Origin: Nitrosomonas sp.
GTDB lineage: Bacteria > Pseudomonadota > Gammaproteobacteria > Burkholderiales > Nitrosomonadaceae
Direction: 5' to 3'
DNA length: 34,980 nt
Assembly: GCA_021774265.1 (NCBI GenBank)
Contig: JAJFJG010000115.1
Coordinates: 1 to 34,980, forward strand
In this document: positions 33,298-34,980 of the stretch, in pieces
Position numbering within the stretch: position 1 is the stretch's first letter
Layout of the letters: every line of letters starts with the position of its first letter
Program-made: the position numbers and the translations under genes
The notes under the pieces: model-generated
What the model saw: only the letters and a program-made list of their open reading frames with translations
Database searches by the model: none
Told to the model about the DNA's origin: nothing

Positions 33298-33945
33298 ATG
33301 AATTATGTGCAACGTATGCTTCTGATCCCTTTAATTTTTGCCTTCACCGCCTGCTCAACGATGTATTACGATGGACTTGAGAAGATAGGCTTACCTAAAC
33401 GTGACGTCATGGTTTATCGTGTTGAAAAAGCACGCGACACACAAGAAGAAACCAAAGAACAATTCAAATCGGCACTGCATCAATTTACAGCCGTCACCAA
33501 CTTCAAAGGCGGCGACCTTGAAGCGATTTATAACAAATTAAACGATGAGTATGAAGCAAGTGTGAGTATGGCCGAAGAAGTCAACGAACGTATTGCAGAT
33601 ATTGAAGATGTATCAGAAGCGCTATTCTCTGAATGGGAACAGGAAATCACCCAATACAGTAGCGCCTCACTTAAGCGCAATAGTCAAAAGAAGTTAAATG
33701 ACACCAAAGCACACTACCGTCAGCTTATTTCATCAATGAAGACTGCCGAAGCAAAAATAGCGCCTATACTTCGCGTATTCAACGACCAAGTCATGTATCT
33801 GAAGCACAACCTCAATGCTCGTGCAATCACCTCGCTGAAAGGCGAGTTAGGTGCCATCAAGTCTGATGTGTCTTCGTTAATCCAATCCATGGAAAAATCG
33901 ATTAATGAAGCGAATGCATTTATTAATACCATGGAACAACAATAG
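33298..33945 (+). CDS. DUF2959-like lipoprotein
   Basis: Lipobox FTACS then MYYDGLEKIGLPKRDVMVYRVEKARDTQEETKEQFKSALHQF; GGAG RBS shortly upstream; pattern recalled as DUF2959. Confidence 0.85.
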   Translation: MNYVQRMLLIPLIFAFTACSTMYYDGLEKIGLPKRDVMVYRVEKARDTQEETKEQFKSALHQFTAVTNFKGGDLEAIYNKLNDEYEASVSMAEEVNERIADIEDVSEALFSEWEQEITQYSSASLKRNSQKKLNDTKAHYRQLISSMKTAEAKIAPILRVFNDQVMYLKHNLNARAITSLKGELGAIKSDVSSLIQSMEKSINEANAFINTMEQQ

Positions 33946-34008: not shown

Positions 34009-34821
34009 TTAAATCTTCTGTGGTATAAGAATGGTCGTGAAATCGATTCCCGTGTTGCCAGTTCTTTCCTGAAAAGCATTGATCGTAATCTGATAAATTT
34101 CTAGTTCTTTCGTATTATTAACTGGCACCAACCACTGAGCAGTAAATTGGCTAGGCGCATCCATAGGCGCCTTTTTATCAAAAGCCAACTGAATTGTTTC
34201 TTCGTAGATATCACCGCCCACTTTTTCTATTTTTGCGACAACTTCAAACTCTTTAGGGTCCCAAGCCGTGCTTTCGCCAATTGGGCAGCCACACATCATC
34301 GTTACATTCGCTCTGATATCAACGTAAGTTGGCGCACATTTTGGCATAAAATGTGCGGGTGGATTTAAAGCCTGCACCGCCAGCCCATGAATTTCAAGGA
34401 ATAAGCCACCACCCTCCTTACCACCCGTGATATCTTTTCCAGGATAGACCCATTGGCAGGCTGTCGCAGTATTCGCCGCCTGTGGTGCGGCCAATGGGCC
34501 ATAAGCACTGATCTTTAATAACCTTGGCTTGTCCAAATCAAGCACAGCGGTATATACCGACGCGCCATCTACAGGCCAAACATTACTCCGATTAATGCAA
34601 ACATCCATCAACTGACTTTCACCCGAATCGCCACGGGTATTCCCCTCAGCCAAAAACTCGCCCGTTCTTGCATCGGTGATAGTCACCAATGCGCCGCCAA
34701 TATCATCACCCAGAAACTTGCCACCGACAGCCATCACCCGCACATCAATCTTTGTTGGTATACCCATGAAAGTCCCTTCATATTTAGGAGTTAACAGCAT
34801 TATTCTATCAACTATTTTCAC
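34009..34821 (-). CDS. Hypothetical protein (270 aa)
   Basis: Long ORF with no signal peptide; beta-rich, GGALVTITDARTGEFLAEGNT resembling a carboxypeptidase-regulatory/Ig-like strand pattern; start may be one of several Mets (e.g. MLLTPKYEG). Confidence 0.75.
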   Translation of the reverse strand: MKIVDRIMLLTPKYEGTFMGIPTKIDVRVMAVGGKFLGDDIGGALVTITDARTGEFLAEGNTRGDSGESQLMDVCINRSNVWPVDGASVYTAVLDLDKPRLLKISAYGPLAAPQAANTATACQWVYPGKDITGGKEGGGLFLEIHGLAVQALNPPAHFMPKCAPTYVDIRANVTMMCGCPIGESTAWDPKEFEVVAKIEKVGGDIYEETIQLAFDKKAPMDAPSQFTAQWLVPVNNTKELEIYQITINAFQERTGNTGIDFTTILIPQKI

Positions 34822-34913
34822 CTCTAGAATTCTAATTCCCTTTCAGCATTCATTTCATATCTTCATACAGATAAAGATATAATCCAAGCATAAACAACAC
34901 ATAACACAACAAT

Positions 34914-34980
34914 ATGTCGCCACCTGCAACGACACCAAACAGACAAATCTTTATCAGCTACAGCCGCACAGATCGTGATG
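34914..34980 (+). CDS. TIR-domain protein (5' end only, truncated by window)
   Basis: ATG at 34914 reads MSPPATTPNRQIFISYSRTDRD; 'IFISYSRTDRD' is the canonical first strand/box 1 of TIR domains. Confidence 0.75.
   Translation, partial: MSPPATTPNRQIFISYSRTDRD

Follow-up and report, generated by a model that had tools for sequence, protein, structure and literature searches.

The right-hand end of the window, which here means the whole 34,980-nucleotide stretch of Nitrosomonas DNA that was analysed, carries two divergent genes, one for a 252-residue protein and one for a TIR-domain protein that runs off the edge. More likely than not, these are two unrelated, separately acquired genes that point away from each other at a variable site next to a core gene of the DUF2959 family. 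From sequence comparison, they probably do not form a new defence system and just adjoin, and we infer that they function independently. What is new is the family of the 252-residue protein, for which the searches of family libraries and solved structures gave no entry. The site is mostly ordinary as a defence locus, since the TIR gene is probably another TIR–nSTAND1–FGE gene of a genus for which retroelement-diversified systems have been reported before.

The divergent gene pair and its surroundings

Comparison of positions with the assembly (3.4 Mb, 220 contigs) shows that the window is the entire contig G000:C19. Hence, it is the end of the contig, and not the choice of window, that truncates the TIR gene. 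A search of the assembly contigs with the last 101 nt returned no other significant match, so the gene is not extendable and its remainder is absent from the assembly. The far side of the contig was also sought through synteny and the join was not established. In the closest relative, the genes next to DUF2959 on that side are a hybrid response regulator and nadC; in the window's genome nadC lies about 0.4 kb from the end of contig C183, where a transposase-like fragment begins, and the junction therefore probably falls within a repeat. In a sister genome (G025, L142 5141-9304), the DUF5062 gene likewise has a TIR gene (TIR–AAA–TPR) after it within about 1.5 kb, hinting that this neighbourhood may be a hotspot for TIR-type genes.

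The left-hand border of the acquired stretch is the lipoprotein-like DUF2959 gene (33298..33945, forward strand; Pfam PF11172, E 7e-84), which is core to the genus (56 of 61 genomes). None of the genus genomes compared has a homologue of the 252-residue protein beside it. The same-genus relatives are ammonia oxidisers, as AMO is carried by 14 of the 26 genomes sampled, with three copies in some. The AMO family was searched for in the window's own genome and not found, an absence that may mislead because multi-copy genes are easily lost in assembly.

The open reading frame on the reverse strand (34009–34821, 270 codons) exists exactly as the original prediction described it, and the likely product is shorter. 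The family alignment and an upstream ribosome-binding-like GAAGGGA favour the ATG at 34767, making a 252-residue protein (34009..34767) the more likely product. It begins MGIPTKIDV, and its same-genus homologue, L008, begins MGTLTKIDV. The 18-codon upstream extension with a GTG start (34768..34821, reverse strand) is missing from the homologues and is probably untranslated. Similarly, the 92-bp gap first given between the divergent genes holds for the frame as called, while the likely start gives a spacing of about 146 bp. This intergenic region (34768..34913) is AT-rich (30% GC) and has promoter-like sites on both strands, five against 2.4 expected, all of them consensus matches only.

Against L008, the gene shows a dN of 0.18 and a dS of 1.4–1.7, the latter near saturation. 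The resulting dN/dS of about 0.11-0.13 means that the gene is maintained under purifying selection, and it rules out a pseudogene. Its GC content is 0.47 compared to 0.41 for the window. With 40 relatives, purifying selection and raised GC, the frame is more than a chance one.

The 252-residue protein and its family

The 252-residue protein has no significant match in Pfam, NCBIfam, PHROG or the PDB sequences, in agreement with the first reading of the DNA, which could not assign it. Relatives were found by a search of genome contigs at 40 loci in other genomes belonging to the Acidobacteriota, Chloroflexota, Pseudomonadota, Thermodesulfobacteriota, Nitrospinota, Bacteroidota, Verrucomicrobiota and others. 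The alignment of 35 members has 19 invariant columns, which include NVTMMCGC, a Trp, S-x-F and N-x-G. The signature NVTMMCGCP occupies residues 154-162 (34282..34308, reverse strand). More distant members, from sphingomonads and at the order level, retain MCGCPI, the core MCGCP being common to all these. A literature search for the MCGCP motif gave no match. Judged by sequence, this appears to be an undescribed, widely distributed family, mostly exported according to predicted signals, with an invariant MCGCP loop.

AlphaFold, which the original prediction had proposed for this protein, returned a confident all-beta model (mean pLDDT 94.2, pTM 0.87) with two tandem Ig-like beta-sandwich domains predicted. 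Foldseek places the model among Ig/FnIII/MG arrays. From strand order and secondary structure, the CGC loop, S-x-F and N-x-G are expected to come together at the same end of domain two. A hydrophobic N-terminus is present in 25 of the 35 members and in none of the window's clade. The window's protein would thus be a cytosolic member of a family that is mostly exported elsewhere. For example, one of the order-level members begins with a leader, RRNFF, of twin-arginine-like type, which would fit a folded, cofactor-bearing protein.

In the phylogeny, the window's protein and L008 nest with Acidobacteriota in the signal-less clade (support 98/91). The gene is present in 2 of 125 genomes of the bacterial family and 2 of 399 of the order. 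This nesting, together with the sporadic presence and the higher GC, implies horizontal acquisition, probably from an acidobacterial lineage. A phage origin was considered and rejected, as no relative occurs in phages or viral contigs.

No conserved operon was found across the family, and the neighbours vary by locus. A minority of members lie near redox or sulfur genes, with DsrE-like genes near some and cytochromes c near others. On two sphingomonad plasmids (L143, L144), the relatives are surrounded by a conserved redox island of FAD/NAD(P) oxidoreductase, rhodanese, ArsR, RND efflux, Tll0287-like (DUF3365), DUF2202, TlpA and CydAB genes. The sphingomonad plasmid neighbours also include DsbB or TauE.

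Conservation and these scattered redox neighbours suggest a chemistry for the CGC site. The invariant Met-Cys-Gly-Cys-Pro loop could be a thiol or soft-metal site (copper-like or sulfur-carrier), a prediction that is the leading mechanism and is put forward tentatively. It is also possible, if rather doubtful, that these are plain structural or ligand-binding Ig-like proteins of an adhesin-like or carbohydrate-binding sort, with the CGC serving for folding only. In favour of this, the Foldseek matches are generic Ig/FnIII/MG-like sandwiches of low TM, including pilins and the structure 4iyk, a putative carbohydrate-binding protein, and there are weak sub-threshold Pfam matches to Ig-like domains. 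However, the MCGCP loop is invariant in exported and cytosolic members alike, which would be uncommon if its role were purely structural. A function for the family would annotate a 'hypothetical protein' found on plasmids and chromosomes, sometimes in sulfide or redox neighbourhoods.

The cut TIR gene and the TIR genes of the genus

On the forward strand, an ATG at 34914 opens 67 nt to the edge (34914..34980) and encodes MSPPATTPNRQIFISYSRTDRD, exactly as originally read. TIR box 1, consisting of the first strand and the following [FY]-rich motif, is present as QIFISYSRTDRD. The 22-residue fragment scores 9.6 bits on a TIR profile compared to a maximum of 7.0 among 6,428 random peptides of the same length. 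It exceeds every one of them, so the TIR label given to this gene at the outset is reasonable.

When the 22 residues were searched against 125 genomes of the bacterial family, the best matches after the window itself were mostly N-termini of frames of about 940-956 residues (in G078, G041, G045, G020 and G054), with a best E of 0.004 per genome for a query of 22 residues only. The proteins from these five genomes and from G064 and G074 align mutually over most of their length, and those of them that were scanned with Pfam give TIR_2, nSTAND1 and FGE-sulfatase. Judging from these 22 residues, the window most likely ends inside a TIR–nSTAND1–FGE gene of about 940 codons. Another architecture is less likely, although stand-alone TIR, TIR–FGE, SIR2–TIR and TIR–TPR genes all occur in a genus with many architectures, and the same genome has a TIR–FGE gene on C23 and a SIR2-like–TIR gene on C200. 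Against these stand the length of the best-matching frames and the string FISYSRTDR, which among the TIR N-termini collected is common to the window and the TIR–nSTAND1–FGE proteins and missing from the others.

A TIR–nSTAND1–FGE protein is an NLR-like putative antigen sensor, encoded by a known kind of conflict gene. Its FGE/C-type-lectin sensor would detect an invader, the STAND NTPase would switch after detection, and the TIR domain would act as effector. The variable region of the sensor appears to be retroelement-diversified in some sister genomes. The original prediction of a defence-type TIR gene is thus borne out to the extent that the closest N-termini in the bacterial family are mostly of this defence or conflict type; the rest of its claim to a defence locus is not.

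TIR genes are found in 66 of 85 genus genomes, with up to 15 per genome. Among the sister TIR–nSTAND1–FGE loci, three have a reverse transcriptase (RVT_1), one of which also has bAvd (L170 4395-10998, with bAvd; L173 3861-8657; L171 1201-5949). In two of them (L170, L173), VR/TR copies of about 130 nt differ mainly where the template has adenine, the signature of a diversity-generating retroelement (DGR). The TIR–nSTAND1–FGE proteins would therefore be DGR targets in at least two sister genomes. STAND–FGE targets of DGRs have been described as putative antigen sensors, and Nitrosomonas species have been named among organisms with multiple related DGRs (PMC10907252). FGS domains have likewise been linked to diversity-generating systems (PMC7159879).

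The window's genome has other TIR genes. On contig C200 (L048 1664-6600), a SIR2-like–TIR protein is followed after 32 bp by a 1,181-residue protein that has WD40 repeats and whose N-terminus is STAND-like; the two genes are a probable defence pair and are flanked by transposase-like frames. On contig C150 (L049 8708-9238), a stand-alone TIR gene near the contig end adjoins, on the same strand, a gene of 261 codons with no Pfam match, and a transposase-like gene lies beyond.

Neighbours or partners, and comparison with known systems

The original prediction held that the unassigned protein could be the partner of the TIR protein in a two-gene or larger defence locus, with the divergent promoter region shared between them. 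The Ig-like protein could then be a regulator, decoy or sensor. Such a partnership is improbable on the evidence of the relatives. Profiles for TIR, nSTAND1, FGE and the DGR reverse transcriptase were run on 44 homologue loci (673 kb, up to 10 kb on each side), and no such gene was found. The profiles were built from genus sequences, which a very divergent TIR could escape, and some of the loci span less than 20 kb. The profile of the 252-residue protein recovered all 44 loci. Conversely, six same-genus TIR–nSTAND1–FGE loci have no homologue of the 252-residue protein. The homologue L008, which is 71% identical, has rpoH on one side and a putative lactonase gene on the other (names read from the sequence), on the same contig as G060:C329, and the TIR and FGE genes of its genome are on another contig. 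A TIR neighbour is in itself weak evidence, since such genes occur in most genomes of the genus.

The partnership does draw something from the divergent, start-to-start arrangement across a 92-146 bp AT-rich gap, from the missing export signal in the window's clade, which would put both proteins in the cytosol, and from the only other copy of the gene in this genome. That copy is a remnant, truncated and frameshifted, at C23:687-1059, and a TIR–FGE gene lies about 350 bp away. The locus (L003, G000:C23, 687-3210) comprises orf159, the intact TIR–FGE gene, a C-terminal fragment of a reverse transcriptase and then the decayed copy. The TIR–FGE gene carries the remnants of a DGR cassette; the reverse transcriptase fragment is 61-72% identical to the intact enzymes of the sister loci, and in two sister genomes orf159 also precedes TIR–nSTAND1–FGE genes. 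By a simple count of about 5 known TIR genes among some 3,400 genes, a second adjacency would arise by chance at about 0.3% and so be rare, or more often if genes of both classes cluster in islands. Against the partnership, the copy is decayed and lies on the same strand as the TIR–FGE gene, not divergent from it. A segmental duplication as the source of the C23 paralogue was rejected, as only about 350 nt align (86%) and the orientation to TIR differs.

Hence, outside the window's own genome the homologue loci scanned show no association with TIR genes, while within it the decayed copy does lie beside such a gene, and for this reason the partnership is not called fully refuted. It is very improbable that retroelement-diversified TIR–FGE sensors have in this lineage gained a regulator or partner by recruiting an adjacent gene for an Ig-like MCGCP protein lacking an export signal, with the decayed copy as a trace of an earlier recruitment. 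Two separately acquired neighbours remain the preferred reading, and the case shows that two genes may look like partners when the contig is truncated and one of the gene classes is common, although the homologues elsewhere give no support for it.

The pair resembles Thoeris and other two-gene TIR systems in having a TIR gene with a second gene nearby. It differs in being divergent rather than an operon and in its second gene: when a ThsA-type partner (a SIR2-like NADase) was sought on the left side of the TIR gene, the side that the contig covers, the neighbour there was the 252-residue gene, for which neither Pfam nor NCBIfam gives a SIR2, a ThsA-like or another defence family. The 252-residue protein shares two predicted tandem beta-sandwich domains with Ig-like, FnIII and macroglobulin-type proteins, from which its family differs by the invariant MCGCP loop, the many exported members and the absence of sequence matches in Pfam, NCBIfam, PHROG and the PDB. 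Like the Ig-like carriers of copper or sulfur in the periplasm (P19/FtrA and SoxYZ type), it combines a beta-sandwich with conserved Cys and Met, some family members lie in redox or sulfur neighbourhoods, and Foldseek gives a weak match to FtrA-P19 (7r5e, TMt 0.41); no sequence similarity was found and the site arrangement differs, which makes the likeness a lead only. The nearest comparison for the cut gene is with the TIR–nSTAND1–FGE targets of DGRs (PMC10907252) and the related FGE/FGS conflict domains (PMC7159879). Although the window shows just 22 residues of it, with any nSTAND1, FGE, VR or reverse transcriptase lying beyond the contig end, and the sister loci are without the 252-residue gene, its TIR N-terminus reads most like those of sister proteins of about 940 residues, some of them accompanied by a reverse transcriptase, bAvd and TR/VR copies.
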